Source: a virus
Virus record (IMG/VR): IMGVR_UViG_3300046007_001879
Coordinates: 1-24,881 of that record
Strand: one strand, 5' to 3'
Length of the DNA: 24,881 bases
Below the pieces are notes generated by a model that worked only from the letters and a program-made list of their open reading frames with translations, did no database searches and was not told where the DNA came from. Position 1 is the stretch's first letter; each line of letters starts with the position of its first letter. Positions 2,093 to 21,080 of the stretch are shown one piece after another. Both the position numbers and the translations under genes were made by a program.

Positions 2093-2371
2093 ATGGCAGG
2101 ACCAGGAGGTGCAAGACCAGGAGCAGGTCGCAAACCAAAAGACGAAGAGAATAGAATTAGGGATTTAATGATGCCTTATTCACTAGATGCAATACAATGC
2201 CTAGCTAATATAGTAGTAAGCGATAAATCAAAAGATACCGATAAGATTAGTGCATCAAAGATTATCATTGAATATGCTTATGGTAAACCTAAGGAGAAAG
2301 TAGAATCAGACATCACAATCAATACAACATCACTAAAAGATTTGATTAACTTTGGTAACACTGAATCCTAA
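2093..2371 (+). CDS. terS: Terminase small subunit (putative)
   Basis: The protein has 92 residues and opens with PGGARPGAGRKPKDEENR, the Gly/Arg/Pro-rich AT-hook-like start seen in many small terminase subunits. A helical central part (residues 25-75, containing ASKIIIEYAYGKPKE) follows, as in the DNA-binding and oligomerisation region of these proteins. The subunit recognises the packaging site and delivers DNA to the large terminase. It lies directly before the large terminase gene and overlaps it by 20 bases, which supports the call. Sequence similarity in this family is low, so the assignment rests mainly on the N-terminus and position. Confidence 0.75.
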   Translation: MAGPGGARPGAGRKPKDEENRIRDLMMPYSLDAIQCLANIVVSDKSKDTDKISASKIIIEYAYGKPKEKVESDITINTTSLKDLINFGNTES

Positions 2372-3557
2372 ATATAAAACGTTTGGAAGTGATAGCAGAT
2401 ATTTCATTGTTACTGGTGGTAGGGGTAGTGGTAAGTCTTACAGCATTAACTTGCTACTTCTATTACTTACATATGAAAGTGGGCATACCATTCTATTTAC
2501 AAGATATACACTTACTTCTGCTCACGTTAGTATTATCCCTGAGTTTATTGATAAGATTGATATACTAGATAAGCACTCCGATTTTCATATAACAAAGGAC
2601 GAGATTATAAACCTAAGAACAGGAAGTAAGATATTATTTAAAGGTATCAAAACAAGTTCAGGAACTCAGACTGCAAACCTTAAATCTTTGGCTGGTGTTA
2701 CGACATGGATATTAGATGAAGCAGAAGAGCTTACTGATGAAGATACATTTGATAAGATAGATTATTCGATACGTTCTAAAGACAAACAGAATAGAGTAAT
2801 ACTTATTTTAAATCCAGCAACTAAGGAGCATTTCATTTATCAAAAGTTCTTTGAAGCAAAAGGTGTTGAAGCGGGTAGCAATGTAATTAAAGGAGATACA
2901 ACATACATTCATACGACATACCTAGATAACTATAACAACTTATCGGAAAGTTTCTTAAATCAAATACAAACAATAAAAGAACGTAGACCGGACAAGTATA
3001 AACACACAATACTTGGAGGATGGCTAGAGAAAGCTGAAGGAGTTATATTTACCAATTGGAGAATAGGACCATTCAACAAAGATAATGGAAGTGTATTCGG
3101 TCAGGATTATGGATTCAGTAACGATCCATCTACATTAATTGAAACGTCAATAGATAGGACAAACAAAAAGATATACATTAAAGAGCATATACATAAGCAA
3201 GGTTTAACTACGTCAGAACTTGCGCAATTAAACCAACAATTTGCGGGTAGAGATTTAATAGTAGGTGACAACTCAGAGCCTAGATTGATAGCAGAACTTA
3301 AAGCAAGAGGGTTAAATATAGTAGCAACAATAAAAGGTGCAGATTCAGTTAAATATGGCATAAGTTTAATTCAAGATTATGACTTGATTATTGAAGAAAA
3401 TTCTGTAAATTTGATAAAGGAATTAAACAACTACTGCTGGCTTGAAAAAAAGAGTGAGACACCGATTGATAAATACAACCACTGCTTAGATGCAATGAGA
3501 TACGCGATTAGTTATCAATTAGCTAATCCAAACAAAGGGAAGTATTCAATTTACTAA
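2352..3557 (+). CDS. terL: Terminase large subunit
   Basis: This 401-residue protein is the packaging motor. The N-terminal ATPase has Walker A GGRGSGKS (22-29) and Walker B WILDEAEE (119-126, Asp122/Glu123). An LNPAT coupling-like motif follows near 153-157. The C-terminal RNase H-like nuclease shows the three expected acidic positions: Asp252 in GQDYGFSND, Asp306 in IVGDNSEP and Asp380 in NHCLDAMRYA. This layout fits the PBSX-type Terminase_3/6C group, and the length is typical. The frame opens just after a TGA at 2343-2345, and there is no ATG before Walker A. I therefore use the TTG at 2352 as the start; a +1 shift from the small-subunit gene is an alternative. Confidence 0.95.
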   Translation: MVTLNPKYKTFGSDSRYFIVTGGRGSGKSYSINLLLLLLTYESGHTILFTRYTLTSAHVSIIPEFIDKIDILDKHSDFHITKDEIINLRTGSKILFKGIKTSSGTQTANLKSLAGVTTWILDEAEELTDEDTFDKIDYSIRSKDKQNRVILILNPATKEHFIYQKFFEAKGVEAGSNVIKGDTTYIHTTYLDNYNNLSESFLNQIQTIKERRPDKYKHTILGGWLEKAEGVIFTNWRIGPFNKDNGSVFGQDYGFSNDPSTLIETSIDRTNKKIYIKEHIHKQGLTTSELAQLNQQFAGRDLIVGDNSEPRLIAELKARGLNIVATIKGADSVKYGISLIQDYDLIIEENSVNLIKELNNYCWLEKKSETPIDKYNHCLDAMRYAISYQLANPNKGKYSIY

Positions 3558-3569
3558 ATACAAAATAAG

Positions 3570-3773
3570 ATGAGTGAAGTTAAAGAAGTAACGTTTCAAG
3601 TACCGAACAAGAAACAAATTATTAAGGATGTAACCTTAGACTTAATCGAGAAGTTTAAAGCTGAGCACGGAGATGGCTGGAAGTTAGAGATGTATGAAGC
3701 TATCGACAACGAGATTATGAAGTTTCAAGGAAGTTTAGAGTATTGGAAAGCTATTAGAAAGTTGATTAAATGA
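3570..3773 (+). CDS. Small hypothetical phage protein
   Basis: This is a 67-residue, highly charged protein that is probably mostly helical after an N-terminal strand (EVTFQVPNKKQI). It has no membrane segment, cysteine cluster or catalytic motif. It lies 12 bases after the large terminase and overlaps the next start (ATGA at 3770-3773), so it should be co-translated with the tail chaperone gene. I do not recognise its family. Confidence 0.65.
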   Translation: MSEVKEVTFQVPNKKQIIKDVTLDLIEKFKAEHGDGWKLEMYEAIDNEIMKFQGSLEYWKAIRKLIK

Positions 3774-4459
3774 AGTTAGAACTAGTAATACCAACATCGT
3801 TAAGCGAGATACCTTTGATGCACTACCAAAAATACATGGTAGTTGCATCGAATAAGGATAACTCAGAGCTGTTTATATCACAGAAAATGATTGAGATATT
3901 TTGTGGTATAGAATTAAAGAACGTAGTTAACATTAAGCTGTCAGATGTGATTGATTTGGTTACTCACTTCAAGAAATTGTTTAGTGAAAAGTTAGAACTT
4001 AAAAGAACATTTGAGATACAAGGTGTAAAGTTTGGATTCATTAATGAGTTAGAGGATATCTCTTTTGGTGAGTATATAGATTTAGAGTCTAACATAATCG
4101 ATGTACAATCTTTCCACAAAGCAATGGCTGTAATGTACCGACCTATTACGAGTCAGAAAGGGGATAAGTATACCATAGATAAATATAGCGGTACAGCGAA
4201 CTATGCTGACTTGATGAAGTACGCACCTTTAGATGTTGTATTGCCAGCGTCGGTTTTTTTTTGGAATTTAGGAAGCGAGCTATTGACAGCTACCCTGTCC
4301 TATTTGGAGAATCAGATGACGAAGAAGAACAAAACGATTTTAGCGAAGCAACTCAATTTGGACAACGATGGGGATGGTATCAGTCAATATATCAACTCGC
4401 TAAAGGAGACATTACGAAGTTTGACAGAGTTACAGAAAGTGGACTATTTGAGTGCTTAA
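3770..4459 (+). CDS. Tail assembly chaperone, gpG-like unshifted product
   Basis: The protein has 229 residues and is soluble and helical. It is placed upstream of the tail tip and tape measure genes and contains a T9 run at 4254-4262, read as GTT TTT TTT TGG. This arrangement matches the gpG/gpGT tail chaperone system of long-tailed phages, in which the shorter protein coats the tape measure and a minority -1 frameshift product adds a tail-recruiting domain. The unshifted frame continues 65 codons past the slip site, through FWNLGSELL and NDGDGISQYINSLKE. That tail looks like real protein and resembles what I recall from related phage proteins. Function is inferred from position and frameshift architecture, not from a catalytic motif. 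Confidence 0.7.
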   Translation: MKLELVIPTSLSEIPLMHYQKYMVVASNKDNSELFISQKMIEIFCGIELKNVVNIKLSDVIDLVTHFKKLFSEKLELKRTFEIQGVKFGFINELEDISFGEYIDLESNIIDVQSFHKAMAVMYRPITSQKGDKYTIDKYSGTANYADLMKYAPLDVVLPASVFFWNLGSELLTATLSYLENQMTKKNKTILAKQLNLDNDGDGISQYINSLKETLRSLTELQKVDYLSA

Positions 4460-4536
4460 CAATGTTGACGTTTGAAAAGCAGAAAATGGAAATAGAAAAT
4501 AGACAATTAAAAAGAGCACATGAAAGGATACTATGA
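4261..4536 (+). CDS. Tail chaperone T-like domain, made by -1 frameshift
   Basis: This 91-residue reading frame lies in the -1 frame relative to the gpG-like gene and overlaps it for about 200 bases. It is open from 4210 with no ATG before residue 68 and begins exactly at the T9 run, so the natural reading is a gpGT-like fusion: 164 residues of the 3770 frame plus this segment, about 255 in total. It contains FGQRWGWYQSIYQLAKGDI and LFECLTMLTFEKQKMEIENR, a Trp-rich helical pattern typical of the T part in Bacteroidetes phage tail chaperones. The slippery heptamer is T TTT TTT at 4255-4261. A weak hairpin (GACAG 4285-4289 with CTGTC 4295-4299) lies downstream. Confidence 0.72.
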   Translation: MEFRKRAIDSYPVLFGESDDEEEQNDFSEATQFGQRWGWYQSIYQLAKGDITKFDRVTESGLFECLTMLTFEKQKMEIENRQLKRAHERIL

Positions 4537-4975
4537 TTTTACAAAAGCATTTCACGATTTCTTAATAAGTGATCCGTTAGTAAACCAGGTTACAAAAGGA
4601 AGCCTGGATAAGATTACAAACGCTAAAAAAGATATGTATCCGTTAGCTCACGTCATGATTGATAATGGTGCATTTGAAGAGAATACAATAAGGTTTTCTG
4701 TATCGTTAGTTGTGATGGATATTGTTGATTATACGAAAGAAGATTTAACACATTTATACTTCGGGAATAATAACGAAGATGACATTCACAATCAAACGTT
4801 AATGATTTGTCAACGTGCATTTGAAAGTATGCGAAGAGGTCAGTTAGGCGACAATTACTCTATTGAGTCAGAGACTGCATCTTTTGAATTCTTTGTTGAT
4901 AGATTTACAGATGATGTTGCTGGTTGCACTATGACTTTCGATGTAATAATGTCAAACGAGATGACTATATGTTAA
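4520..4975 (+). CDS. Tail terminator-like or tail completion protein
   Basis: The protein has 151 residues and a mixed alpha/beta character: an N-terminal helix, FHDFLISDPLVNQVTKG, then MYPLAHVMIDNG and beta strands through FSVSLVVMDIVDY and FEFFVDRF. Proteins of this length and pattern ('F..FL..D..V..VT.G......K...YPLAHV.I') occur in Bacteroidetes phages near tail genes and are often called tail terminator or minor tail proteins. Tail terminators cap the tail tube and meet the head. The gene overlaps the T-like frame by 17 bases and the next gene by 7. The specific role is inferred from position and size. Confidence 0.55.
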   Translation: MKGYYDFTKAFHDFLISDPLVNQVTKGSLDKITNAKKDMYPLAHVMIDNGAFEENTIRFSVSLVVMDIVDYTKEDLTHLYFGNNNEDDIHNQTLMICQRAFESMRRGQLGDNYSIESETASFEFFVDRFTDDVAGCTMTFDVIMSNEMTIC

Positions 4976-5520
4976 ATGTACAGGAGGAGTTAGACAAGTT
5001 TAAGGATTATGTAATTAAGCAATCTAAATCTAATCTAACTAGACTAAAGAAAAACGATAGGAAGGGATTGTATAATACGATTAAAGGTGAAGCAAAGGCA
5101 ATGCCTAACTCTTTCTACCTATCATTTGATTTAGGGGAATATGGTGCGTATGTCGATAAAGGTGTAAAGGGTGCGGACCCGTCTCAGGTTTCACCAAACG
5201 CAAAAGTAAAAGGACAGCAAGCGCCTAATAGTCCATACAGTTTCAAGACTAAGAAGCCACCATCTGACTTAATAGCAAAGTGGGCTCAAAGAAAGAACTT
5301 AAGATTAAGGGATAAGAAGGGACAATATGTTAAAGGCAGTTACAAAGCAATAGGATTTATCACGGCTAAAAACATTTGGGCGCGAGGCATTAAACCTTCA
5401 TTATTCTTTACAAAACCATTTGAGAAGGCATACAAGCAACTTCCTGATGAGTTAGTCGAAAAATACGGATTGGACGCTTTGGAGTTATTTAAACATACAA
5501 TCAAACAACCTAAAAAATAA
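4969..5520 (+). CDS. HK97 gp10-like head-tail or minor tail protein
   Basis: The ATG at 4969 overlaps the upstream stop and gives 183 residues; an earlier ATG at 4924 would add 15 residues inside the upstream gene. The sequence has a helical N-terminus, YGAYVDKGVKG near residues 58-68, an APNSPYSFKTKKPP loop, IGFITAKNIWARGIKPSLFF near 125-144, and a helical end (KAYKQLPDELVEKYG). This is the pattern of HK97 gp10-like proteins, in which the 'YxxYVExGt' strand and the final 'Gi.p.pFl.pA' segment are conserved. These proteins work in head-tail joining or tail completion. It sits next to the tail terminator-like gene, as usual. Confidence 0.6.
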   Translation: MLNVQEELDKFKDYVIKQSKSNLTRLKKNDRKGLYNTIKGEAKAMPNSFYLSFDLGEYGAYVDKGVKGADPSQVSPNAKVKGQQAPNSPYSFKTKKPPSDLIAKWAQRKNLRLRDKKGQYVKGSYKAIGFITAKNIWARGIKPSLFFTKPFEKAYKQLPDELVEKYGLDALELFKHTIKQPKK

Positions 5521-6575
5521 TGGCTAATATATTTGCGAGAAGTCCTTACATTATATCCGTAAACGAAACGGGACAAGAAGGTAGTAAGATAGAGATATTT
5601 CTATGGAATGGTACAGGTTCAGCACCTACTACACCACAATACACACTATCTAAATTAATACCCGCGTCTAATAATACGTTAACAACCTACGATATATCCC
5701 CATATATTAGAGAGTATTTGTCATTTGCTACGAGACAAGACCCAACAGCAATCACAACGTTAAGTACAAGCCAATGGTGTAATGTTCGAATCAAGAGATA
5801 TAAATTAGACGTTACTACATATACGCTATTAAATACTACAGATTACTACGCCTTTGATGGATATACTTATTACGAAAGTGGAAGCAATGTAGATTTAGGG
5901 AATTATTTACTAGAAAATAAAACATATTATTATAACGAGGGAACTTATTCAGGTCAGATAAATTTATTCTTATCTTATTACAATGTTTATGATGGTGGTG
6001 ATTATGTTCTTTATACTAAACCTGACTTGAGCGGTTCAACTACTTTGTCTGCTTCTAGTCAAGGATGGAGATGTATTCCTAGGGTTCATCCATCGTATAC
6101 AGCAACAGGAAATATAGTAAAAGTATATACAGCTTATGGCGTATTGAAAGCTACATATACATTTCTTCCAATTTGCGAGTCGAAATATACTCCTGTAGTG
6201 ATTGACTTCATTAATCAGTATGGAGCTTGGCAAAGAGAGTTCTTTTTTAAAGCGTCTAAGAGTACGCTAGCAATAGAATCAAATGATTATAACGTAATGC
6301 AGAGTTCGATAACTAGCTACGATATCAAACAAGGTCAAAAGAAATCATTTAACACCAATGCTAGGGAGACAATTTCTGTAAATAGCGGTTATGTAAATGA
6401 AGATTTTAGCTCAAACATTAAACAGCTTATAATGAGTGAACGTATATTGGTTGATAATAAGCCTGCGATATGCAAAACAAAGTCATTAGAGTTAATGAAA
6501 AACATAAATAATCACATGATTAACTATAGTTTAGAATTCGAATTAGCTTATAACACTATAAATGCAGTAATATAA
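5520..6575 (+). CDS. Tail structural protein, probably tail tip or baseplate
   Basis: This 351-residue protein begins NIFARSPYIISVNETGQEGS and is rich in Thr, Ser, Tyr and Asn with short strands, typical of beta-sandwich virion proteins. It shows no enzymatic motif. It is coupled to both neighbours through TAATG overlaps (5520 and 6575). Pairs of proteins of about 350 and 800 residues lie next to the tape measure in Bacteroidetes siphoviruses, so a distal tail or baseplate role is plausible. I cannot assign it to a named family. Confidence 0.6.
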   Translation: MANIFARSPYIISVNETGQEGSKIEIFLWNGTGSAPTTPQYTLSKLIPASNNTLTTYDISPYIREYLSFATRQDPTAITTLSTSQWCNVRIKRYKLDVTTYTLLNTTDYYAFDGYTYYESGSNVDLGNYLLENKTYYYNEGTYSGQINLFLSYYNVYDGGDYVLYTKPDLSGSTTLSASSQGWRCIPRVHPSYTATGNIVKVYTAYGVLKATYTFLPICESKYTPVVIDFINQYGAWQREFFFKASKSTLAIESNDYNVMQSSITSYDIKQGQKKSFNTNARETISVNSGYVNEDFSSNIKQLIMSERILVDNKPAICKTKSLELMKNINNHMINYSLEFELAYNTINAVI

Positions 6576-8998
6576 TGAAGAGAATTGTAGACATATACGT
6601 TGAAAGTATCAGTGGGAGTGGTGACTATTTAAAATTAGAATTGTTTAACGATGAGAAAATTGAGCTTACAAGTACGATTCAGAATATACAAGATATATCT
6701 AAGGTATACACCGACTTTACACAATCGTTTACCATACCAGCGAGTACAATTAATAATTCCATACTTCATCACTTTTATCAGTCGGATGTAAATATTACTA
6801 ATAACGAATGGAATTTTAATTTTAGAATTAGAGCAAGAATTGAAATTGATTTAGTCCCATTTAGAACGGGTACTATAATGATGGAGAAAGCTAATATAAA
6901 GGATGGACGTACGGATAGTTATACGATTACTTTCTATGGTGACTTAGTAAGTCTTAAGGATAAGTTTGGAGATGCTAAGTTAAGCGATTTAGATTTTACT
7001 TCATATGATATTGAATACACTGGCACAAATGTAATTAATAGAGTTAAGTCAAGTACATTAGAGAATGTGATGTTTCCGTTGATTAGTTCTAAAAGATTAT
7101 GGAGCTATGGAGATGGGGCTAGTACAGATGTTAAAACGGTTAAAGGTTCGATTAAGAATGACGAATTATTTCCGGCCTTAAAAGTTGCAAGGATATTAGA
7201 TGCAATTGAAGCAAAGTTTGACGTTGAATTTAATTCGCAGTTCTTTGTAAGTACAAATGATAAGTGGGAAAAGTTGTATTTATGGCTCAAGAATGAAGAG
7301 CAGTACACAGGAAAAACAAGTTCTACACCAGTGAATATTGTCGCGCCAAGCGGACAAACTATTGTCCCTGGATTCACTATGTATCCGTATTCTTTATCCC
7401 CAAAATATTACTACGCGTTTAACGGGTTTTATTTTGATGGTTCCTTCTTTACTTGTAAATCAGTAGGAAACGTGACGAATCCTTTTGGTTCGGGACTTGT
7501 GTCAATAGACGCTCCAACGTTACAAATATCCGTACAAAGTGTTTCAGACGCTACAATTGAATATTACATAGACTTATATAAAGATGGTAAAGTTGTTAAA
7601 ACAAAGACGAGTAAAGGTAAATTTTCCCCCTTAGATTTCTATACTTTCGCGCCTTCAGATAATGGAAGTGTATTTTTCTTTAGAATAAGAACTAAGGCGC
7701 CAATGACGTTAAACTTAGATGCTACTCTAAACTATAAATATTATAATAATTATAATCAACCAATATTTATTCCTTCAACTACCACTACTACAAAAACGGA
7801 TTTAAGTTCCAAAATGCCATCGATGACGGTTGCTGAATTCTTTAGCGGGTTGCTTAAGATGTTCAACGCTACTTGTTATGCTACGAGTGTAGATGTGTTT
7901 ACAATTGAGCCTTTGGATATGTGGTATAATGGTGGTAACATTTACGATATTACAAACTATACAGATATAGATTCTATTGACGTTGAAAGAACAAATGTAT
8001 TCAAAAAATTGTCTTTCAAATATCAAAAGTCAGAATCGTTTTTAAATAGGGAATATTACGACAATGGAATAATGGAAAGAGAGTATGCAGACACTAATTT
8101 GACGTTATCAAACGAGGGTACGGATTATAGTGTTGAATTACCTTTTGAAAACTTATTGATGAACAATCTAAACGTTGACAACTTTCAGGTTGGGTATTGC
8201 TTAACAAAAGGTCCTGACTTTAAATCTTACATTCCTAAGCCAGTATTCTTATATTTTAACGAAAGAATTAACGATACTTTATACATGAATAATGGCACTA
8301 CATCGACGTTATGTAGCGACTTTAATATATTCAGTAATGTATTAGAGTCAAATGGTGGCTTATATTCTCTTACATTTCATCCTGAATCAGACGTTAAAAT
8401 CCCTAATGATACGTTAACTAATAATTTATACTCATTATACTATAGTAGCTACCTAGAAAACTTATTCAATCCTAAATGTAGACTTATAAGAATAAAGGCA
8501 CACTTCCCTTTGTCATTAATCACGAAATTACGATTGAATGATAGGTTAATAGTGCGAGATAAAAGATATATTATCAACGAACTTAAGTCTGACATTACAA
8601 GTGGGGAAGTCAGTCTAACTTTAATCAATGATTTTAGACCAATGCTTAACGATGCTATTACTCCTACAATAGTTATACCAAGTGGCGGTGGTACTGTTAC
8701 AATTCCTTATAAGGTTCCAAACGGGGTGATTAGCACAACGTTTTCATCTGGGGTTTCAGGTACTACAATATCCCCAGGAAGTACAACTACAGATGCATCT
8801 ATTGAAGTCACAGCGCCTGTAAACCCGTACACACCTACACCGATTTGGACCGAAAGCACAACGGATGTTATAATAACAGATGATGGATGGGGGATAGTAA
8901 ACGAAGAAGGGTTTGGAGTTGTAATACCTGTTGATGCGACTAACTTAAATAATGATGGTACGACTTTTACAAATACAATTAATTTATTACAAGAATGA
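6575..8998 (+). CDS. Large tail-tip / baseplate hub-like structural protein
   Basis: With 807 residues this is the largest protein here. The N-terminal 120 residues contain ISKVYTDFTQSFTIPAS and PFRTGTIMMEKANIKDGR, a pattern I associate with Bacteroidetes phage baseplate or tail-tip proteins. The middle is beta-rich. The last 150 residues become Thr/Pro/Gly-rich (VIPSGGGTVTIP, then a run rich in Thr and Ser), like a flexible or Ig-like exposed domain, and the end resembles fibre-type sequence (DDGWGIVNEEGFG). It probably forms the tail tip, perhaps contacting the adhesins. It overlaps the small gene at 8995 through ATGA. The position before the tape measure gene is unusual. Confidence 0.65.
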   Translation: MKRIVDIYVESISGSGDYLKLELFNDEKIELTSTIQNIQDISKVYTDFTQSFTIPASTINNSILHHFYQSDVNITNNEWNFNFRIRARIEIDLVPFRTGTIMMEKANIKDGRTDSYTITFYGDLVSLKDKFGDAKLSDLDFTSYDIEYTGTNVINRVKSSTLENVMFPLISSKRLWSYGDGASTDVKTVKGSIKNDELFPALKVARILDAIEAKFDVEFNSQFFVSTNDKWEKLYLWLKNEEQYTGKTSSTPVNIVAPSGQTIVPGFTMYPYSLSPKYYYAFNGFYFDGSFFTCKSVGNVTNPFGSGLVSIDAPTLQISVQSVSDATIEYYIDLYKDGKVVKTKTSKGKFSPLDFYTFAPSDNGSVFFFRIRTKAPMTLNLDATLNYKYYNNYNQPIFIPSTTTTTKTDLSSKMPSMTVAEFFSGLLKMFNATCYATSVDVFTIEPLDMWYNGGNIYDITNYTDIDSIDVERTNVFKKLSFKYQKSESFLNREYYDNGIMEREYADTNLTLSNEGTDYSVELPFENLLMNNLNVDNFQVGYCLTKGPDFKSYIPKPVFLYFNERINDTLYMNNGTTSTLCSDFNIFSNVLESNGGLYSLTFHPESDVKIPNDTLTNNLYSLYYSSYLENLFNPKCRLIRIKAHFPLSLITKLRLNDRLIVRDKRYIINELKSDITSGEVSLTLINDFRPMLNDAITPTIVIPSGGGTVTIPYKVPNGVISTTFSSGVSGTTISPGSTTTDASIEVTAPVNPYTPTPIWTESTTDVIITDDGWGIVNEEGFGVVIPVDATNLNNDGTTFTNTINLLQE

Positions 8999-9171
8999 TA
9001 GAGCAAATAATAGCACTTTTAAAGATAGATAATTTCTACGGAGTAAGTGAAAATATAGACATTGCAAAGGGAAAATATCTATTATCGGATAGTTTTCGCG
9101 TAAACTACAAACAAGGCAAAAGAGAGTTATTATTGAAAGCAAAGTACAATGGCAGAAAAGAAAGTAATTGA
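8995..9171 (+). CDS. Small hypothetical protein in tail operon
   Basis: This 58-residue frame starts with an ATGA overlap on the baseplate gene and ends 23 bases inside the tape measure gene, filling what would otherwise be a 150-base gap. It encodes MIEQIIALLKIDNFYGVSEN at its N-terminus and then a basic C-terminal part (KQGKRELLLKAKYNGRKESN). There is no membrane segment. The coupled start and clean filling of the gap support it as a real gene; the function is unknown. Confidence 0.6.
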   Translation: MIEQIIALLKIDNFYGVSENIDIAKGKYLLSDSFRVNYKQGKRELLLKAKYNGRKESN

Positions 9172-11035
9172 ACTCGAAGTAAAGACAAACACTGAAGATA
9201 TAAAGGGTAAATTTGCATCTTTAAAAAGCGAAATATCTAAAACTTCGGAAGAGGTAGAACAACTTACAAAAGCCTATGGTGAAAATAGTGACGAGGTAAA
9301 GCAAGCGTCTAAACAATTAGAGTCTCTTGAGAATGCGTATAGAGATTTAAATAAAGTAGCTACAGATGTCGGTGCTACATTCGAGGAGGTATATGGTGAT
9401 TTACAACCACTTACAACGAGAATGGGTGAAGCAGAAGATAGACTCTATGAATTAACTTTAGCTGGTAAAACAAACTCAAAAGAATATAAGGATTTATTAG
9501 GTGTTGTAGGTCAGTACAAACGTACCATGATGGAGACTGATATGGTGGTAGATGCTGCTGCTACAACAATGACAAGTAAATTAGGAGGTGCATTAGGGGG
9601 TGCTGCATCTGCATTTTCAGCAGTTGAAGGAGGAATGGCTTTAGTTGGAGTTGAGAGTGAGGACTTGCAAGCTACGATGGTAAAGTTACAAGCCGCAATG
9701 GCACTCTCAGAAGGCATAAATGGCATAAAGGAATCTAGTGCTGCATTCAAACAATTAGGTGCTATAATAGGTCAAACTGCAATAGGTCAAAAATTACTTA
9801 CAGCAGCGCAAATAGTAGGTGCTGCAACTATGCGTGTTCTAAATGCTGTAATGGCTGCAAACCCAATACTCCTTGTAGTTGGTGCCGTAGGTGCTTTAGT
9901 TGCTGCTTTAGAAATATTAAAAAGAGGGCAAGATGATGCTGCTAATAAACAAAGGGAATTAAATAGACAATTAGAATACACAAAAAGATTAGAGAAAGAA
10001 AGTATAGACGCTACATCTGAGCACGTTAACGAATTAAAGAAACAGCACGAAAACAAGCTAAGATTAAAACAAGCTGAGGGAGCTAAGGATAGTGAGTTAA
10101 CAAAAATAGAGATTGATAATAAAAAAGAGATATTAAGATATTACAACTTAGTTTATCAAGGTGGAGCTAAATTAAATAAGGATCAATTAGCAGATGCAAA
10201 ACAATTAAGAGAAGATATAAAAATATTACAAGCTCAACAACTAACTGATTTAAAGGAAGCAAACGCAGAAAAGAAAACAGAAATTAAAAAAGCAAATAAA
10301 GACCTATACGAACAAGACAGAATAGATTTAATAAATCAAGAGCAAGATGACATAGCAAGAGGTATTTTAGCTGATAATGCTGAGGCTGAAGCGGATAGAT
10401 TAGCAAAAGGAAATAAATTAAAATCAGAGGAGGAGTACTTTGGTTTATTAGTTGAGCTAGACGATCAAGCGAGAGAAGAAAAGAAAGCAAAAGACGCAGA
10501 AGATTTAGCAAATTCAAAATTAATTTCAGCTGCAAAGTTTGACATAGCAAGAAATACCTTTTCAGTAATTGGTGATTTAGCAAAGTCATTTGCTGGCAAG
10601 TCAGAGAGAGAACAAAAGAGAGCGTTTAATATTCAGAAAGCGGCTAATATTGCTGGTGCTGTAATGGATACTTATAAGGCTGCAAATGGTGCTTATGCCT
10701 CAATGTCAGGAATCCCCTATGTTGGTCCGTTTTTAGGTGCTGCGGCTGCGGCTGTTGCTATTGGTGCAGGTATAGCAAACGTTAACAATATTCGTAATCA
10801 AGAATTTGGTGGGGGGGGAAGTGCTAGTTCAGCTCCATCTAGCACAGGCAGTCTTGGTGGTGGTGGTGGATCTAATAACCAAGCAATAACACCGAACTTT
10901 AATATTATAGGCAACCAAAACCAAACGCAATTAGCACAATTAAATCAAGCACCCGTTAAAGCGTATGTTGTAGGTTCGGACGTTACGACACAGCAAATGT
11001 TAGATAAGAAAAAAATACAAAACGCTACAATTTAA
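9149..11035 (+). CDS. Tail tape measure protein
   Basis: This 628-residue protein sets tail length and passes through the tail tube during DNA ejection. Residues 1-90 are a charged helical coiled coil (LEVKTNTEDIKGKF, then EEVEQLTKAYGENSDEVKQ). Ala/Gly-rich stretches follow (GGALGGAASAFSAVEGGMAL) and a hydrophobic segment near 220-260 (MAANPILLVVGAVGALVAAL) that could insert into the host membrane. A long Lys/Glu coiled coil covers about 270-440, and a second hydrophobic stretch lies near 525-555 (GPFLGAAAAAVAIGAGIANV). The C-terminus is Gly/Ser/Asn/Gln-rich. Helical content, hydrophobic islands and tail context are typical. At roughly 1.5 angstrom per residue, the tail would be of the order of 90 nm, a rule of thumb only. 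Confidence 0.88.
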   Translation: MAEKKVIELEVKTNTEDIKGKFASLKSEISKTSEEVEQLTKAYGENSDEVKQASKQLESLENAYRDLNKVATDVGATFEEVYGDLQPLTTRMGEAEDRLYELTLAGKTNSKEYKDLLGVVGQYKRTMMETDMVVDAAATTMTSKLGGALGGAASAFSAVEGGMALVGVESEDLQATMVKLQAAMALSEGINGIKESSAAFKQLGAIIGQTAIGQKLLTAAQIVGAATMRVLNAVMAANPILLVVGAVGALVAALEILKRGQDDAANKQRELNRQLEYTKRLEKESIDATSEHVNELKKQHENKLRLKQAEGAKDSELTKIEIDNKKEILRYYNLVYQGGAKLNKDQLADAKQLREDIKILQAQQLTDLKEANAEKKTEIKKANKDLYEQDRIDLINQEQDDIARGILADNAEAEADRLAKGNKLKSEEEYFGLLVELDDQAREEKKAKDAEDLANSKLISAAKFDIARNTFSVIGDLAKSFAGKSEREQKRAFNIQKAANIAGAVMDTYKAANGAYASMSGIPYVGPFLGAAAAAVAIGAGIANVNNIRNQEFGGGGSASSAPSSTGSLGGGGGSNNQAITPNFNIIGNQNQTQLAQLNQAPVKAYVVGSDVTTQQMLDKKKIQNATI

Positions 11036-11046
11036 GTTATAATAAT

Positions 11047-11619
11047 ATGGAAAAGTTACAGAACATAGAGCTTACAATTAAGGACGAGAAAGAGCAAGGT
11101 GTATTTGCAATTAGTTTTGTTGATAGACCGGCGATTGAAGAAGATTTTATTTTACTTTCTGAAATGGAAGTGCAAATGAAAGTTATCGACGAGAATAAAC
11201 GTGAGGTAATTGGTCTTGCATTGGTACCTGAAAAAAAGATTCTTAGACGTATTAAAGATAAAGAATTCACGGTCTCATTTAGTGCTGAGACAATTGCTAA
11301 AACGCAGGAACTTTACATGAAGAAATTGTACGGAAATAATGTTACTGTGGACCATGCAGAAAATGTTGATGGTGTAGCATTAATTGAGTCATGGATAGTT
11401 GAAGATGTTAAGAACGATAAATCAAATATCTACAAACTTAATGCGCCTATTGGATCGTGGGTTGTAAAGATGAAAGTTTATAACGAAGAAGTTTACCAAG
11501 GCATTAAAGATGGTAAGTTTAACGGATTTAGTATTGAGGGTAAATACGATGGATTAGAGCAATTAGAAATGCAAGAAGACGTACTAAATGAGATTAAAGA
11601 TTTACTAGAAAAACTATGA
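11047..11619 (+). CDS. XkdF-like prohead serine protease
   Basis: The protein has 190 residues and matches the XkdF-type phage serine protease pattern. FAISFVDRPAIEEDFILLSE (20-39) is the conserved start, EVIGLALVPEKKILRR (53-68) follows, then VDHAENVDG with His103, GSWVVKMKV (136-144) and FNGFSIEGKY with the candidate nucleophile Ser162. These enzymes cleave scaffold and capsid proteins during head maturation. The following genes (decoration, scaffold-like, major capsid) form the expected head module. The last 20 residues are helical and acidic. The 11-base spacing from the tape measure and ATGA overlap with the next gene show a compact operon. Confidence 0.82.
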   Translation: MEKLQNIELTIKDEKEQGVFAISFVDRPAIEEDFILLSEMEVQMKVIDENKREVIGLALVPEKKILRRIKDKEFTVSFSAETIAKTQELYMKKLYGNNVTVDHAENVDGVALIESWIVEDVKNDKSNIYKLNAPIGSWVVKMKVYNEEVYQGIKDGKFNGFSIEGKYDGLEQLEMQEDVLNEIKDLLEKL

Positions 11620-12146
11620 GTTTATATCCACACTATGTAAGATATAATGATTCGACACATATTGAGTCTACAAACTATTTGTATTTTGATGATGGTTCGG
11701 ACGAGTTACGCAGAATATTAAGAAGTAAATTTAATTCATTCTTAAATTATTACGACCATTTAGGGACTAGCGTAACAACTATTACGACAACTAATTTTTA
11801 TAAATTAACTACTACTACTACGTTAGGACTTTATAACGATAATTTCCAACATACAAATAATAGAATAACAAACTTAAATACTAATAGAAATTGCAAATTA
11901 GAAGCATCTGTTTCTGTTACTAGTGGAAATAATAATATACTAAACTTTGCTTTCTATAAAAACGGGGTGATAGTAGATTCTAGTGAAATGGACGTTACTT
12001 GTTCATCAAGTGGTAAAGCATCAACAACTCACATACAAACAATAGTAAATTTAGATGTAAATGACTATGTTGAAGTATGGGTAAAAAATCAAAGTTCAAA
12101 CAATGTTACTTTGGTTCATTTAAATGTAATCATAACTGAAATATAA
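11616..12146 (+). CDS. Head decoration/fibre protein with TNF/C1q-like domain (putative)
   Basis: This 176-residue protein has an N-terminal segment of about 60 residues with a short helix (DELRRILRSKFNSFLNYYDH), followed by a beta-sandwich. The sandwich shows LEASVSVTSGNNNILNFAFY, 'KNGVIVDSSEMDV', and the closing strands VNLDVNDYVEVWVKNQSSNN and VTLVHLNVII. This is the pattern of TNF/C1q-like jelly-roll domains used in phage fibres and capsid decoration proteins. Its place between protease and capsid genes favours a head-borne, trimeric decoration that could bind glycans or the cell surface. A fibre elsewhere on the virion remains possible. Confidence 0.55.
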   Translation: MSLYPHYVRYNDSTHIESTNYLYFDDGSDELRRILRSKFNSFLNYYDHLGTSVTTITTTNFYKLTTTTTLGLYNDNFQHTNNRITNLNTNRNCKLEASVSVTSGNNNILNFAFYKNGVIVDSSEMDVTCSSSGKASTTHIQTIVNLDVNDYVEVWVKNQSSNNVTLVHLNVIITEI

Positions 12147-12343
12147 TGGCAAAGAAAGCGACAATGGCAAAAGCGTCACCAAAAGGTGGCAAGAAAGGGT
12201 GTCTATGTAAAGACGGAAAATACTCTAGTGAATGTTGTGATGGCACATTACCAGCACAAGGAATTGGAAGCGAGTTAGGACAATCCGTAGCGACTATTAA
12301 TCACGTTGTAACTGAACGAGTTATCTCTGAAGCAAGAGGGTAA
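12146..12343 (+). CDS. Small Lys/Cys-rich protein of head module
   Basis: The protein has 65 residues. The first 17 are lysine-rich (AKKATMAKASPKGGKKG); then comes a cysteine cluster with CLC and CC and the motif DGTLPAQGIGSELGQS. A 'GCLCKDGxYSxxCCxG' core recurs in small Bacteroidetes phage proteins near capsid genes. The cysteines might bind a metal or form disulphides in the virion. It is coupled to the upstream gene by TAATG. No function is known to me. Confidence 0.65.
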   Translation: MAKKATMAKASPKGGKKGCLCKDGKYSSECCDGTLPAQGIGSELGQSVATINHVVTERVISEARG

Positions 12344-12379
12344 TTTAAAACAAACTATTTAATAATAAGTTAATAAAGT

Positions 12380-12979
12380 ATGGAAAAAGAAACACTTTTA
12401 AAAAAGGTTAAAAACTTCCTTATAGAGCTTACAGGTTTAGAGACTGAAGTTCTAGAAACGAAGTTAGAAGACCAAGTATTAGCAGATGGTCAAACAACTA
12501 TCCAAGCTGATATGTTTGAGCCAGGACAAAACGTATTTATCGTAGTTCCTGATGCCGAGCCTGTGCCACTTCCTGTTGGTGAATATGAACTAACGGATGG
12601 TAAAATCTTAGTAGTAAAAGTTGAGGGAGTTATTGACTCTATCGTTGATGCTTTACCTACTGAAGAAAACCCTGCAGAAGCAGAAACAGAAGTACCTGTT
12701 GAAGCTGAAAAAACACCTGAACAAGCGAAAGTTAAAAAAATCGTACGTTCACAAGTTGAAGAACAACATTTTTCCGCATTGGAAGAAAAAATTGCAGAGT
12801 TAGAAGCTAAAATTGTAGAACTTTCTAAGGTTACAGAAGAGGTGGTTGTAGAGCTTGCTGAAGAGCCTAAACCAATTCAGTTTAATCCTGAGAATTCTCA
12901 AACAATTCAGCACATCGACTTAACACCAGGTAAAGCGAGAAGTATTCGCGACAACATTTTAGAAACAATTTATAAATAA
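12380..12979 (+). CDS. Scaffold-like protein preceding the capsid gene
   Basis: This 199-residue acidic protein lies 8 bases before the major capsid gene. Residues 1-85 are beta-rich (QVLADGQTTIQADMFEPGQN, then FIVVPDAEPVPLPVGEYEL), a Glu/Ala/Pro-rich linker covers about 90-120, and a coiled coil is evident near 130-165 (SALEEKIAELEAKIVELSK). The acidic composition, coiled coil and position between protease and major capsid protein are what a capsid scaffolding protein shows, and it may be a substrate of the upstream protease. The leader TAATAAAGTATGG is typical of Bacteroidetes genes. An alternative is a minor head protein. Confidence 0.62.
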   Translation: MEKETLLKKVKNFLIELTGLETEVLETKLEDQVLADGQTTIQADMFEPGQNVFIVVPDAEPVPLPVGEYELTDGKILVVKVEGVIDSIVDALPTEENPAEAETEVPVEAEKTPEQAKVKKIVRSQVEEQHFSALEEKIAELEAKIVELSKVTEEVVVELAEEPKPIQFNPENSQTIQHIDLTPGKARSIRDNILETIYK

Positions 12980-12987
12980 AATAAACT

Positions 12988-13941
12988 ATGGCAACTACAA
13001 CATCATTAACGACTACATATAGTGGTCAACATTCAGGAATGTGGGTAAAAGCTGCTTTATTAAGCGGTAACACATTAGCAAACGGGGGTATGACTATCAT
13101 GCCTAACATCGCTTACAAAGCGGTTATCAACAAATTGAGTACGGACGGGCTTCTTGCAAATGCGAGCTGTGACTTCACCGCTACTTCTACGGTAACAATT
13201 ACAGAACGTACATTAACTTTAGAGAATTTCCAAGTTAATTTATCTTTATGTAAAAAAGATTACATCACTTCTTGGCAATCAGAAGAAATGGGGTATTCTG
13301 CAAACAAAGTATTAGCTAAATCTTTCGCTGATTACTTACTTGCATTCGTAGTAGAGAAAGTTGCTTCTGCTATCGAGACATCTATTTGGAATGGTGTTAA
13401 TGCGACTGACGGACAAGTTGCCGGTATCATGACATTATTAACTGCTGACGCTTCATTGCCAACTGCAAATGAGGTTGCTGGAACAACTGTAACTGCTGCT
13501 AACGTTATTGCTGAATTAGGAAAAATCGTTGACGCAATTCCAGCTGCATTGTATGGTAAAGATGACTTGAAACTTTATGTATCTCAAAACATCGCTAAAT
13601 TATATGTTCGTGCATTAGGTGGATTTGGAGCTTCAGGATTAGGTGCTAATGGTTCTGATAACAAAGGGACACAATGGTATAACAATGGTCAATTGACTTT
13701 TGATGGTATTCCATTATTCGTAGCAAACGGATTGACTGCTAACCAAGCAATCGCTGCTCAAACTTCTAACTTGTTTTTCGGTTGCGGTTTGCTTAACGAT
13801 GCAAATGAAATACGATTAATTGATACCTCCGAAACATTAGGAGATGACAATGTAAGAATCGTAATGAGAGCTGGTTACGCAGTTAACTACCACTCAGTAT
13901 CAGATATCGTGACTTACGGAATCACCAATTCCGCTAATTAG
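12988..13941 (+). CDS. Major capsid protein
   Basis: The protein has 317 residues and an Ala/Thr-rich composition. It has an N-terminal arm (residues 1-25), a 'LTLENFQVNLSLCKKDYITSW' strand/helix region near 75-95, a long spine-like helix (SFADYLLAFVVEKVASAIET), and late beta strands with GIPLFVANGL and VRIVMRAGYAVNYHSVSDIV. This fits the HK97 fold, although exact domain edges cannot be set by eye. The codons look more regular and G/C-ending than those of neighbours (GCTAAC, GCTTCT, ATCGCT), as expected for a highly expressed gene. It follows protease and scaffold-like genes and is followed directly by a strong intrinsic terminator. Confidence 0.88.
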   Translation: MATTTSLTTTYSGQHSGMWVKAALLSGNTLANGGMTIMPNIAYKAVINKLSTDGLLANASCDFTATSTVTITERTLTLENFQVNLSLCKKDYITSWQSEEMGYSANKVLAKSFADYLLAFVVEKVASAIETSIWNGVNATDGQVAGIMTLLTADASLPTANEVAGTTVTAANVIAELGKIVDAIPAALYGKDDLKLYVSQNIAKLYVRALGGFGASGLGANGSDNKGTQWYNNGQLTFDGIPLFVANGLTANQAIAAQTSNLFFGCGLLNDANEIRLIDTSETLGDDNVRIVMRAGYAVNYHSVSDIVTYGITNSAN

Positions 13942-13963
13942 TAACTAGCTGAATATTAATACT

Positions 13964-13994
13964 AGGGGAGGGGAAAAAACTCCTCCCTTTTTTT
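13964..13994 (+). terminator. Intrinsic terminator after the major capsid gene
   Basis: GGGAGGGG (13966-13973) pairs with CTCCTCCC (13980-13987), eight pairs including one G-T, around an A6 loop, and T7 follows at 13988-13994. It is the strongest stem-loop plus T-run in the window. It would end or attenuate transcription from the head genes. Confidence 0.88.
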
Positions 13995-14017
13995 ATAAAC
14001 ATTAAAACTATAAACTC

Positions 14018-14566
14018 ATGGCATGTGATATTGCAAAAGGTAGATTAGAAGAGTGCAAAGACCAAGTTGGAGGTCTTAAAGCAGTTTACTTCATTAACTA
14101 CCAAATAGCTCGAGCGGACATAACGTATGACGCTACAAATACAGATATGATTACAGCAATTACGAATGTAGATGTCTTGTATAAATATGAATTAAAAGGT
14201 GTGGATAATACATTCGACCAGGATGTTGTATCTGACAGAAATGCTGGTACAACTTATTTTTCTCAAAAATTAAACATTAGATTAAAGCACCAAGATATTG
14301 CTACTCACAAGCAAATCAAGCTGTTAAGTTATGGTCGTCCACATATCGTGGTACAGACTAATAATGATCAGTTCTTCATTATGGGTTTAGAGCAAGGTGC
14401 TGATGTTGTAGGGGGTACAATTTCAACAGGTGGTGAAATGAAATCTGCTTCAGGATATTCTTTGAATTTCGTAGCAGACGAGAAAGTTCCTGCTAACTTC
14501 TTGAATGCGTCAACATCAACAGCGATGTTAGCGTTATTTACAAGTGCTACAATGGTTACTTCATAG
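14018..14566 (+). CDS. Major tail (tube) protein, putative
   Basis: This 182-residue protein begins ACDIAKGRLEECKDQVGGLK and contains VDNTFDQDVVSDRNAGTTYF, 'LNIRLKHQDIATHKQI', IMGLEQGADVVGGTISTGG and a final GYSLNFVADEKVPANFL. This pattern (an N-terminal 'C.I..G....CKD..GG...v', an 'F.Q....R..GT.y..q.l' strand, then a 'GLe.GAd..GG....G' loop) is characteristic of tail tube proteins in Bacteroidetes siphoviruses. The gene stands alone between two terminators, consistent with separate high expression. Its location between capsid and portal genes, away from the tape measure, is unusual. Confidence 0.75.
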   Translation: MACDIAKGRLEECKDQVGGLKAVYFINYQIARADITYDATNTDMITAITNVDVLYKYELKGVDNTFDQDVVSDRNAGTTYFSQKLNIRLKHQDIATHKQIKLLSYGRPHIVVQTNNDQFFIMGLEQGADVVGGTISTGGEMKSASGYSLNFVADEKVPANFLNASTSTAMLALFTSATMVTS

Positions 14567-14588
14567 CCTAAAATAGTTCACTAGGCTA
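14564..14588 (+). other. Hairpin across the tail tube stop codon
   Basis: TAGCCTA (14564-14570) pairs perfectly with TAGGCTA (14582-14588) around an 11-base loop, and the stem includes the TAG stop. No T-run follows it. It may protect the 3' end of the mRNA or assist the adjacent terminator. Confidence 0.45.
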
Positions 14589-14592
14589 AGAG

Positions 14593-14623
14593 GGGGTGTC
14601 GATTAAGTTCGGCATCCCTTTTT
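14593..14623 (+). terminator. Intrinsic terminator after the tail tube gene
   Basis: GGGGTGTCGA (14593-14602) pairs with TCGGCATCCC (14609-14618), ten pairs including two G-T, around the loop TTAAGT; T5 follows. Together with the hairpin at 14564-14588 it fills most of the gap before the next gene. Confidence 0.8.
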
Positions 14624-14662
14624 GTGTTTAAAACAAAATGTAATTCTTTAAGTTATATATAC

Positions 14663-15049
14663 ATGATAGTATTAGAACCTATAGCAACGTCTCAATTAAT
14701 CACAGTAACTCAAAGGTTAACTGACCTTGGAACAATACCTAGAGCGAATAAATTACAAATTACAGACGAAGAAACAAACGTATCTAGGGTAATAACATTA
14801 ACGGCTACAGCTCCATACGATTACTTTGATAATATTACCTTAACAATTAATCCAGCATTAAAGGAAGGACATACTTATAAGGCTGTATTATACTATAATA
14901 CTATAGATAAATACACATGGAAGGGTAAAATCTTCTGCACTGCTCAAATTACTACTTCATTAGGTTTTGAAGATGTAAGAGACTACAGCGTAAATGATGG
15001 AAGATATACAGAAAATACAACAACAAACCAATTTATATTAAATGACTAG
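14663..15049 (+). CDS. Virion-associated hypothetical protein
   Basis: The protein has 128 residues when started at the ATG at 14663. A GTG at 14624 would put the start in the terminator tail and add 13 unlikely residues. The sequence is beta-rich: IVLEPIATSQLITVTQRL, then LQITDEETNVSRVITL and YDYFDNITLTINPALKEGH with alternating strands, like an Ig-like or jelly-roll domain. The end overlaps the portal start by 8 bases, so it is translated with the head-connector genes. It could be a minor virion protein. I do not recognise a named family. Confidence 0.6.
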   Translation: MIVLEPIATSQLITVTQRLTDLGTIPRANKLQITDEETNVSRVITLTATAPYDYFDNITLTINPALKEGHTYKAVLYYNTIDKYTWKGKIFCTAQITTSLGFEDVRDYSVNDGRYTENTTTNQFILND

Positions 15050-16796
15050 TAACCACGTTATAGAATTATCTGCATATACTTCACCAATAGTTACGGAAGA
15101 CAAGCGTAATGAATGGGTAAATTATGGGGAAGACAATAATTATTTTCAATTCTTGATAGATAGATACTCTAATAGTGCTACTCATTCAGCAGTAGTTAAT
15201 AATATTAGTAGATTAATATACGGAAAAGGTTTGAGTGCATTAGATGCGTCTAAAAAGCCAAATGATTACGCTCAGATGTTGACTCTATTTACAGCAAATG
15301 ATTTACGTAGAGTTATCCAAGACTTATATTTATTAGGTCAAGGTGCATTTCAAGTGCATTACGATAAAGGTCATAAGAATGTTGTAAAGGTATATCATAT
15401 CCCTGTGCAATTATTACGACCAGAGAAATGCGATAAAGACGGAAATATTGTAGGATATTATTATTCAGATAACTGGGAAGATCCTAAGAAATTTGTACCT
15501 AAAAGATTTGACGCATTCGGTGAGGGTAAAAGTGAGATAGAGATACTAATGATACAGCCTTATTCTGTAGGAGCTAAATATTTTAGTAGAGTTGATTACC
15601 AAGGTGCGTTAGAATATACGGTCCTAGAAGAAAAAATTAGTGAGTACCTTATTAATGAGGTAACAAATGGGTTCAGCCCCACGACTATAGTAAATTTTAA
15701 TAATGGTACACCGACTGATGAGCAGAAAGATGAGATTGCAAGAGCTACGATAAGTAAATTAACAGGATCAACAGGGAAGAAAGTAGTTGTATCATTCAAT
15801 GAAGATGAAGCTAAGAAAACTACAATCGATAGCGTACCTTTAAATGATGCGCCTGAACATTACCAATACTTGTCAGATGAGTGCAGAAGCAAGATATTAA
15901 CAGGTCATTGCGTAACTTCACCACTTATTTTTGGTATTGCTACAACTACAGGATTCAGTGCAAATGCAGATGAGTTAAAGAATAGTGTTATTTTATTCGA
16001 TAACATGGTGATAAGACCAAAACAAGAAATATTATTAGAAGCGTTAGATAGTATATTAGCATTTAATGGTATATCATTAAAGTTATTCTTTAAGACTTTA
16101 CAACCTTTAGAATTTGTAGACTTATCAAACGCACAATCTACGGACCAAGTTAAAGAAGAAACAGGTGTTGAAATGAGTGCTGAAGACCATATTGAATGGA
16201 TTGATGGACATGAATATGTGTTAATTGATAGTAGAGAAGTTGATTATGACCTAGAAGATGAGTTGGACGCTGAATTAGAAGCATTAAATTCACCAAAAAA
16301 AACGTTATTATCTAAGATTGTTAACCTGGTTTCTACAGGAACGGCAAGAGCTAATATAAAGTCAGAGCAAGACGGTGCTCTTTTCAAACATAGATATAGA
16401 TATGTAGGTGGGGTTTCTGAAAATACTAGGGATTTCTGTAAAAAAATGGTGCAAGCAAACAAAATATATCGTAAAGAAGATATTATTAACATGGGTTCAC
16501 AAGCAGTAAATGAAGGTTGGGGACCAGAGGGTGCAGATACATACTCAATTTGGTTATATAAAGGGGGTGGAGATTGCCACCATAAATGGATGAGAGAAAC
16601 ATATTTGAAGAAGTCAGACGCTAACTCTCCACTTGCAAGAAGATACACACCCGGTGAAGTTAGAAAAGCTGGTGAAATTGTACCACTTACTGATAAAGAT
16701 AAAAGTGGAAAACAAGTAAATGACAAACGCGTATATCAAAGACCAACGGACATGCCTTATAACGGGTTTTTACCAACAAATAAACGATTCAACTAA
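15042..16796 (+). CDS. Portal protein fused to a MuF/gp7-like C-terminal domain
   Basis: The protein has 584 residues. Residues 1 to about 400 look like a portal: NEWVNYGEDNNYFQFLIDRY, VVNNISRLIYGKGLSAL, LRRVIQDLYLLGQGAFQVHY, and TGFSANADELKNSVILFDNM near the end of the portal core. A disordered acidic stretch follows (EDELDAELEAL). Residues about 445-584 carry YRYVGGVSENTRDFC (Cys466), AVNEGWGPEGADTYS and GGGDCHHKW (Cys512, His513, His514), matching the 'G..d..TR.FC...... C.H.W' signature of Mu gpF / SPP1 gp7-like minor head proteins, with which portals often associate. A single chain with both parts is consistent with a fused portal plus ejected or morphogenesis domain. It follows the capsid gene, opposite to the usual order. 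Confidence 0.85.
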   Translation: MTSNHVIELSAYTSPIVTEDKRNEWVNYGEDNNYFQFLIDRYSNSATHSAVVNNISRLIYGKGLSALDASKKPNDYAQMLTLFTANDLRRVIQDLYLLGQGAFQVHYDKGHKNVVKVYHIPVQLLRPEKCDKDGNIVGYYYSDNWEDPKKFVPKRFDAFGEGKSEIEILMIQPYSVGAKYFSRVDYQGALEYTVLEEKISEYLINEVTNGFSPTTIVNFNNGTPTDEQKDEIARATISKLTGSTGKKVVVSFNEDEAKKTTIDSVPLNDAPEHYQYLSDECRSKILTGHCVTSPLIFGIATTTGFSANADELKNSVILFDNMVIRPKQEILLEALDSILAFNGISLKLFFKTLQPLEFVDLSNAQSTDQVKEETGVEMSAEDHIEWIDGHEYVLIDSREVDYDLEDELDAELEALNSPKKTLLSKIVNLVSTGTARANIKSEQDGALFKHRYRYVGGVSENTRDFCKKMVQANKIYRKEDIINMGSQAVNEGWGPEGADTYSIWLYKGGGDCHHKWMRETYLKKSDANSPLARRYTPGEVRKAGEIVPLTDKDKSGKQVNDKRVYQRPTDMPYNGFLPTNKRFN

Positions 16797-19846: not shown

Positions 19847-20368
19847 ATGCAAGAAGAAATTTGGAAGGATATACCTAACTATGAAGGGTTATATCAAGTT
19901 AGCAACTTAGGTAATGTAAAAAGCTTATCAAGAGAAATTTTAAAACGTGGTAAATATCCATTTATTTGCAAAGAAAGGATGTTAAAAAATAGGGTAAACA
20001 CACGTGGCTATAATCAATTTATTCTTTCTAGTAATAGAAACCGAAAAACTTTTACTACTCATCAATTAGTAGCAATGGCTTTTCTTAATCACAAACCTGA
20101 TGGCACACATAAATTAGTGGTGGATCATATTAATGCAAATAAATTAGATAATCGTGTTGAAAATCTACAAGTAATAAGTCAAAGAGAAAATTCTTCTAAG
20201 GATAAAAAGAACAAGGCTTCAAGATACACTGGTGTAAGTTGGAGTAGTGGAAATAATAAATGGATGTCAGCAATTAGAATAAACGGGAAACAAAACCATT
20301 TAGGGTACTTCAAATGTGAAACATCTGCACATTTAGCATATCAAAATAAACTAAAACAAATAATATGA
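19847..20368 (+). CDS. HNH homing endonuclease with NUMOD4 and AP2-like domains
   Basis: The protein has 173 residues. NUMOD4 is at the start (IWKDIPNYEGLYQVSNLGNV, about 5-24). The HNH core contains His72 in TTHQLVAMAF, VVDHINANKLDNRVENL (Asp93, His94, Asn96) and the final Asn106. An AP2-like DNA-binding domain ends the protein (RYTGVSWSSGNNKWMSAIRI, then GYFKCETSAHLAYQ). Such enzymes nick or cut a target without the element and spread by recombination. It stands between the membrane protein gene and the holin, overlapping the holin start by four bases, so it sits within the late operon without breaking a recognised gene. Confidence 0.9.
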   Translation: MQEEIWKDIPNYEGLYQVSNLGNVKSLSREILKRGKYPFICKERMLKNRVNTRGYNQFILSSNRNRKTFTTHQLVAMAFLNHKPDGTHKLVVDHINANKLDNRVENLQVISQRENSSKDKKNKASRYTGVSWSSGNNKWMSAIRINGKQNHLGYFKCETSAHLAYQNKLKQII

Positions 20369-21048: not shown

Positions 21049-21080
21049 AAACGCAATCTTAATCGGTTGCGTTTTTTTTT
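21049..21080 (+). terminator. Intrinsic terminator after the endolysin
   Basis: AAACGCAAT (21049-21057) pairs with GTTGCGTTT (21066-21074), nine pairs with one G-T, around an 8-base loop, and a T9 run spans 21072-21080. It closes the late lysis operon. Confidence 0.85.

Follow-up and report, generated by a model that had tools for sequence, protein, structure and literature searches.

The closest described systems are lambda gpG/gpGT and P2 E/E+E'. In lambda, the small late gene G is extended in the -1 frame to give gpGT; the slip site is GGGAAAG, it lies 5 codons before the G stop, and G/T stands directly upstream of gene H. The essential tail gene E of P2 (PF10109, Phage_TAC_7) likewise gives two products with a common N-terminus. 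Its -1 slip site, T_TTT_TTG, is rich in T and precedes the stop of E by 6 codons; E+E' and the tape measure gene overlap. Proteins of the gpG/gpGT type bind the tape measure and tail tube proteins and are missing from virions. The HK97 pair gp13/gp14 (2OB9) is a further case for comparison. To our knowledge, the characterised tail chaperone cases are all ribosomal. Another way of changing frame is programmed transcriptional slippage at A/T runs, as in Thermus dnaX (A9), IS elements and Shigella mxiE.

We analysed the linear IMG/VR record IMGVR_UViG_3300046007_001879, whose whole stretch of 24,881 bases is called the window here. A run of nine T (T9) at 4254-4262 lies inside an open reading frame at 3770-4459 (229 aa) and is read there as GTT TTT TTT TGG (4253-4264). 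The -1 frame stays open between 4210 and the stop codon at 4534-4536; past the junction it holds 91 residues, the earliest ATG being residue 68. Joining the two frames at the T9 run gives 255 residues, against 229 without a shift. In all of this the original prediction was accurate, namely in the coordinates of the run and of its heptamer, in the extent of the -1 frame with its late first ATG, and in a junction at the T run yielding about 255 instead of 229 residues. The features of the locus, its presumed partner and two further late genes are as follows.

3770-4261, plus strand: shared N-terminal domain, the gpG-like part of both products, 164 aa (PHROG 32199, E=2e-17; AF2; third-position variability)
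4254-4262, plus strand: T9 slip run (T9 or T10 in the same register in 251/251 usable loci)
4255-4261, plus strand: T_TTT_TTT heptamer, in the frame of the 3770 ORF
4262-4459, plus strand: 0-frame tail of the unshifted product, 65 aa and stop, overlapping the -1 domain
4261-4536, plus strand: -1 frame domain, the T-like C-terminus of the 255-aa fusion, 91 aa and stop
9149-11035, plus strand: tape measure gene, which lies apart from the locus and is its presumed partner (matches to PHROG tape measure families, lowest E=3.7e-16)
12988-13941: virion-protein-like gene
15042-16796: portal gene

Compared with the known systems, the locus shares with P2 a T-rich -1 slip site and two products with a common N-terminus, and with lambda the -1 extension of a small late gene, together with a presumed chaperone role. 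It differs in that 16-88 codons of the 0 frame follow the slip (66 clusters of relatives, see below), whereas only 6 (P2) or 5 (lambda) do so in the model phages, and in that the slip run is T9. It also differs in layout: the tape measure gene starts 4,612 bases 3' of the -1 stop (4536), in place of the usual direct adjacency seen in lambda or the overlap seen in P2. Judged by sequence comparison, the gene would be a variant of the known lambda-like frame switch that departs from it in its 0-frame tail, in its distance from the tape measure gene and in lacking TTC at the slip site.

At least 597 relatives are present in viral metagenomes, so that the gene defines a family there. We fetched 253 loci, consisting of the best 80 of these at least 597, a set of 63, four MAG contigs, the best 80 of 145, a set of 25, and the cultured Nonlabens phage P12024S (locus L082). 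Two of them (L198 and L200) start too near the site to be read and were left out. The 251 usable loci represent 208 distinct 400-base sequences, with three contigs present twice, and the complete loci form 66 clusters at less than 85% protein identity, 30 at less than 60% and 8 at less than 45%. The peptide search patterns were mostly outside the slip codons and hence did not select for T; one pattern, in the 63-locus scan, spans these codons, and the patterns were back-translated with degeneracy. The results showed that the in-register run is kept in all 251 loci, as T9 in 239 and as T10 in 12; in the T10 loci the codon before is TTT and the register is unchanged. Locus L254, which carries an indel, has its T9 in register as well (at 3015). 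The same arrangement is found in P12024S; in tblastn searches of cultured phages with the N or the -1 domain, full-length relatives were found only in the Nonlabens phages P12024S/L. On these alignments, the conservation of T9 is beyond chance. The comparison of homologous loci thus speaks for the predicted shift, with the slip run and its register kept throughout and the -1 domain conserved. As for the hosts, P12024S grows on Persicivirga, and the names of the four MAG contigs give Winogradskyella or Bacteroidetes, phage contigs in MAGs being weak host evidence; the virus probably infects Bacteroidota.

The -1 domain has the consensus FRxR...WGWYQSIY...LTxLxFEKEK across 62 aligned clusters, and that of the window is modelled by AF2 as all-helical, with a mean pLDDT of 82. 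An ATG 5' of WGWY occurs in the -1 frame of only 6 of the 66 clusters, at scattered positions, which means that this domain must be reached by a frame switch; ATG, GTG and TTG are all missing there in 36 clusters. The junction codon is TTA in 173 and TTG in 78 of the 251 loci. Furthermore, codon-position variability was compared in 987 pairs with 80-97% DNA identity, drawn from the complete loci among the first 144. In the N domain, the 0 frame shows third-position differences of 0.15-0.33 per test window, as in single coding; the last slip codons show zero third-position differences; and 3' of the slip the pattern is that of the -1 frame, with position 2 the least and position 3 the most variable in most test windows. 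The codon-position signal therefore switches frame at the slip site, and the conservation of the -1 domain starts there. That the second frame has no start of its own, as originally predicted, is strongly supported by this comparison, 60 of the 66 clusters being without an ATG before WGWY. In P12024S the gene has been split by annotation into gp38 (8001-8528 of its locus), the 0-frame product, and gp39 (8528-8695), the later part of the -1 domain annotated from an internal ATG, both called hypothetical. By comparison with their relatives, gp38 and gp39 are one frame-switching gene, and the second tail protein of this cultured phage would thus have been mis-split.

The 0-frame tail of the unshifted product also appears to be maintained, so that a long stretch is doubly coded, a point on which the original prediction is silent. 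Over the first 54 codons after the slip, the 0 frame is free of stops in 62 of 66 clusters and the +1 frame in 0 of 66, with 17 and 426 stops, respectively, per 3564 codons. With the -1 protein held fixed, identity in the 0 frame was 0.391 against an expected 0.237 (600 sampled pairs; higher in 598), and that in the +1 frame was raised as well (0.309 against 0.213), though this frame is full of stops. Under synonymous resampling with the codon usage of the N domain, 27 of 29 loci have a 0 frame that is open beyond expectation, and a stricter permutation of synonymous codons within each domain, with ORFs of more than 82 codons counted as 82, gave P<0.05 in 19 of 29. For the two closest pair classes, third positions of the -1 frame in the overlap differ at 0.048 and 0.109, against 0.175 and 0.301 in the N domain, a 2.7- to 3.6-fold slowing; since they are also slow beyond the 0-frame stop (0.050 and 0.157, 1.9- to 3.5-fold), slow third positions alone are not decisive for double coding. 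AF2 models the 0-frame tail as helical at low confidence. Taken together, these patterns suggest that both C-termini are probably under selection, and part of the constraint on the overlap may act on the RNA. The locus would then be a natural case of two overlapping C-termini, both apparently selected.

With regard to function, this is very probably a frame-switching two-product gene with a role in tail assembly. The shared N domain would be made both in the unshifted 229-aa protein, with its 65-aa tail, and in the 255-aa fusion, whose C-terminus would be read in the -1 frame following a programmed slip of one base at T9. By analogy with the known lambda system, the shared part would bind the tape measure protein and the -1 domain would recruit the tail tube protein. 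Sixty-one of 62 family members match PHROG 32199, a family without an assigned function, at E<=0.01 (E 2e-17 for the window), the exception being L254. PHROG 166, a tail protein family, is matched by 8 of the 62 at E<=0.01 (best 3e-5) and by 2 of 10 members scanned singly, at profile positions 32-97, with no match in the window itself; P2 gpE also matches this family, and its stretch (E 4e-7) encloses the same positions. The AF2 model of the 0-frame product is confident up to the slip, with a pLDDT of 84-97 per 10-residue block over residues 1-170, and the HK97 tail chaperone 2OB9 aligns to its residues 1-75 (VIA-align Z 4.1, 67 residues, rmsd 3.8), a weak fold match that may be chance; such a Z is not proof. 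Most of the VIA-align rows match just the low-confidence helical tail. In BFVD, the structure matches comprise P12024S gp38, a large number of phage proteins without a name, and a single entry called tail assembly chaperone (E 0.073, probability 0.96).

Other searches returned nothing of this kind. Among the 62 members, no chaperone was present in the 25 Pfam families listed or in 15 NCBIfam families; a PDB sequence search had no match at E 1; and Foldseek against the PDB gave none at E<0.001 for the 0-frame product and two for the -1 domain, both meaningless. With hhalign against the single sequences of P2 gpE, HK97 gp13, P2 E' and lambda T, which as single sequences are poor templates, no similarity was found, including between HK97 gp13 and our proteins and between lambda T and the -1 domain. 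A protein of Flavobacterium phage 6H, R9VW65, is weakly related in fold (E 8.6e-5, TMq 0.33). Its 191-aa ORF, length-matched and taken as R9VW65 (locus L261, 10352-10927, minus strand), carries T_TTT_TTC at FFY near its end, and the -1 frame stops one codon later. Because this frame closes so soon, 6H does not show the same system, and its protein is a possible counter-example from a distant relative. In the window, the chaperone-like gene is surrounded by terminase, tape measure, portal and maturation protease genes, and in P12024S a gene 6.4 kb downstream is a tape measure candidate by a weak PHROG match (E 1.6e-4). Weak profile matches, a weak fold match and this context make gpG/gpGT-type tail assembly chaperones the most likely identity of the two proteins. 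The proposed gpG/gpGT role is accordingly likely, and the -1 switch itself is well supported by the alignments. In view of the weak matches and the atypical layout, we claim only that the gene works like gpG/gpGT.

The composition of the slip codons bears on what makes the switch. The last slip Phe codon is TTT in all 251 loci and never TTC, while in the N domains of 30 clusters TTC makes up 61 of 240 Phe codons; the probability of this absence is about 1.5e-4 under independence and 0.10 with the 8 deepest clusters only. TTC would be silent here in both frames, since it changes TTA/TTG of the -1 frame to CTA/CTG, all Leu. PMC4066793 ranks heptamers of the type H_HH.U_UU.Y with the most efficient ones in E. 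coli, and U_UUU_UUC is of this type. The outer two Ts prove nothing, because the amino acids may hold them (V/L/I/F before; W/Y/C, and Leu, after). In 333 other ORFs of these loci, T7 is rare in all three registers (9, 5 and 7 seen against 31, 22 and 21 expected), as is A9 or longer (2 against 22), whereas A_AAA_AAG, a classic ribosomal slip site, is not depleted (33 against 35). In-register T_TTT_TTC is absent from these ORFs (0 against 8.4), and the other two registers hold 11 against 24.6. The sole T9 among them lies in another register, at codon 263 of an ORF at 3089-4228 of locus L194.

For RNA structure, the original prediction had pointed to a small hairpin downstream of the run. The GACAG/CTGTC repeat does exist at 4285-4299; a role as stimulator is not supported, as shuffled sequences fold equally well (z +0.49, with 138 of 200 matching or surpassing the site) and the 5' arm of the hairpin is not kept in the aligned relatives. 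Three 3' windows over 29 loci gave mean z values of -0.03, -0.35 and +0.36, and RNAalifold returned just a weak helix (-0.76 kcal/mol), in which the T run itself forms 7 pairs, none of them compensatory. Folding against shuffles and RNAalifold thus gave no conserved RNA structure in the stretches tested, and the window had no Rfam match.

These data leave several readings to be weighed. In one of them the -1 ORF is an independent gene that has a start codon of its own. This agrees with the annotation of P12024S gp39 from an ATG within that frame and with the TTG at the junction of 78 loci; we consider it very improbable, given the start codons missing before WGWY in most clusters, the TTA at the junction of the other 173 loci and a conservation that begins at the slip. 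Even less credible is that the T run is a sequencing artefact or a phase-variation switch working by replication slippage. PMC1088944 considers hypermutability during replication likely for long T runs, yet out-of-register lengths were seen in 0 of 251 loci, the 12 T10 cases keep the register, and many separate assemblies agree with the cultured phage. A reading in which the frame switch is real and the proteins have some other structural or head-completion role can draw on the weak family matches, on the position of the gene, which follows the terminase gene closely and lies 4.6 kb away from the tape measure gene, and on the 6.4 kb that separate the P12024S gene from its candidate tape measure gene. 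We regard such a role as unlikely, as the PHROG 166 and HK97 chaperone matches coincide on the N-terminal 75 residues, and the ORF list shows no second pair of small, overlapping ORFs immediately 5' of the tape measure gene.

Either the ribosome or the polymerase may do the slipping. Ordinary -1 ribosomal frameshifting, with a tandem slip of two Phe tRNAs on U_UUU_UUU and no stimulatory structure, is a real possibility that we put somewhat below even: the ribosome could do the switch, because T_TTT_TTT stands in the 0 frame in 251/251 loci. In its favour, the annotation of P2 gene E gives a translational -1 shift at TTTTTTG, 6 codons before its stop, and G-T ribosomal frameshifting is, by the review PMC5009743, widely conserved among long-tailed phages. 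The absence of in-register T_TTT_TTC from other ORFs likewise hints that ribosomes slip there and points away from the polymerase. Set against this, a T in place of C in the final codon is not needed by the E. coli rules and yet is invariant, and no conserved stimulator was found in the stretches tested; in bacteria a stimulatory structure is common, yet dispensable. The T run seems to be kept more strictly than ribosomal slipping alone would need, and the whole run seems to be what selection acts on. Polymerase slippage is a serious alternative, because TTC is missing, structure is not conserved and T runs are avoided independently of register; the invariant nine-T run at the frame junction without conserved RNA structure also resembles programmed transcriptional slippage, which is marked by a conserved homopolymer of about nine A or T. 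Nine is, by PMC1088944, the threshold length for counter-selected A/T runs in a large proportion of bacterial genomes. The avoidance of T runs could nevertheless come from replication errors, and TTC could be avoided for its effect on ribosomal efficiency. We give an even chance to realignment of RNA polymerase with insertion of an extra U (U9 to U10), and think it improbable that both processes act together. Of what was originally predicted, the -1 switch at the T run is strongly supported; as for its agent, the evidence fits polymerase slippage at least as well as the ribosome. We slightly favour the polymerase over the ribosome, the fusion protein being identical either way. The full proposal, a large clade of Bacteroidota phages in which polymerase slippage at T9 sets the chaperone ratio and two C-termini are selected within about 50-260 bases, is tentative, its chances falling a little short of even. 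The gene offers a clean case for asking whether phages can rely on polymerase slippage, rather than on ribosomal frameshifting, to set their tail stoichiometry. Searches of the open-access literature listed no work on a tail chaperone gene with slippage, nor any on a frameshift in this gene family.

Several other features were seen around the gene. The late gene order over 2093-16796 is unusual, running from the terminase through the chaperone-like gene, tape measure, maturation protease and virion-protein-like genes to the portal. Of the two T9 runs in the window, just the one at 4254-4262 falls within a listed ORF; that at 21072-21080 forms the tail of a hairpin resembling a terminator (21049-21080), 3' of an endolysin-like gene (20559-21029). 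A NUMOD4/HNH homing-type endonuclease gene (19847-20368) lies within the late region. A 22-base direct repeat (24087-24108 and 24818-24839, 86% identical, 731 bases from start to start) flanks a GIY-YIG/NUMOD3 endonuclease gene at 24150-24842, which looks as if it had been inserted near the end of the gene at 22993-24153.
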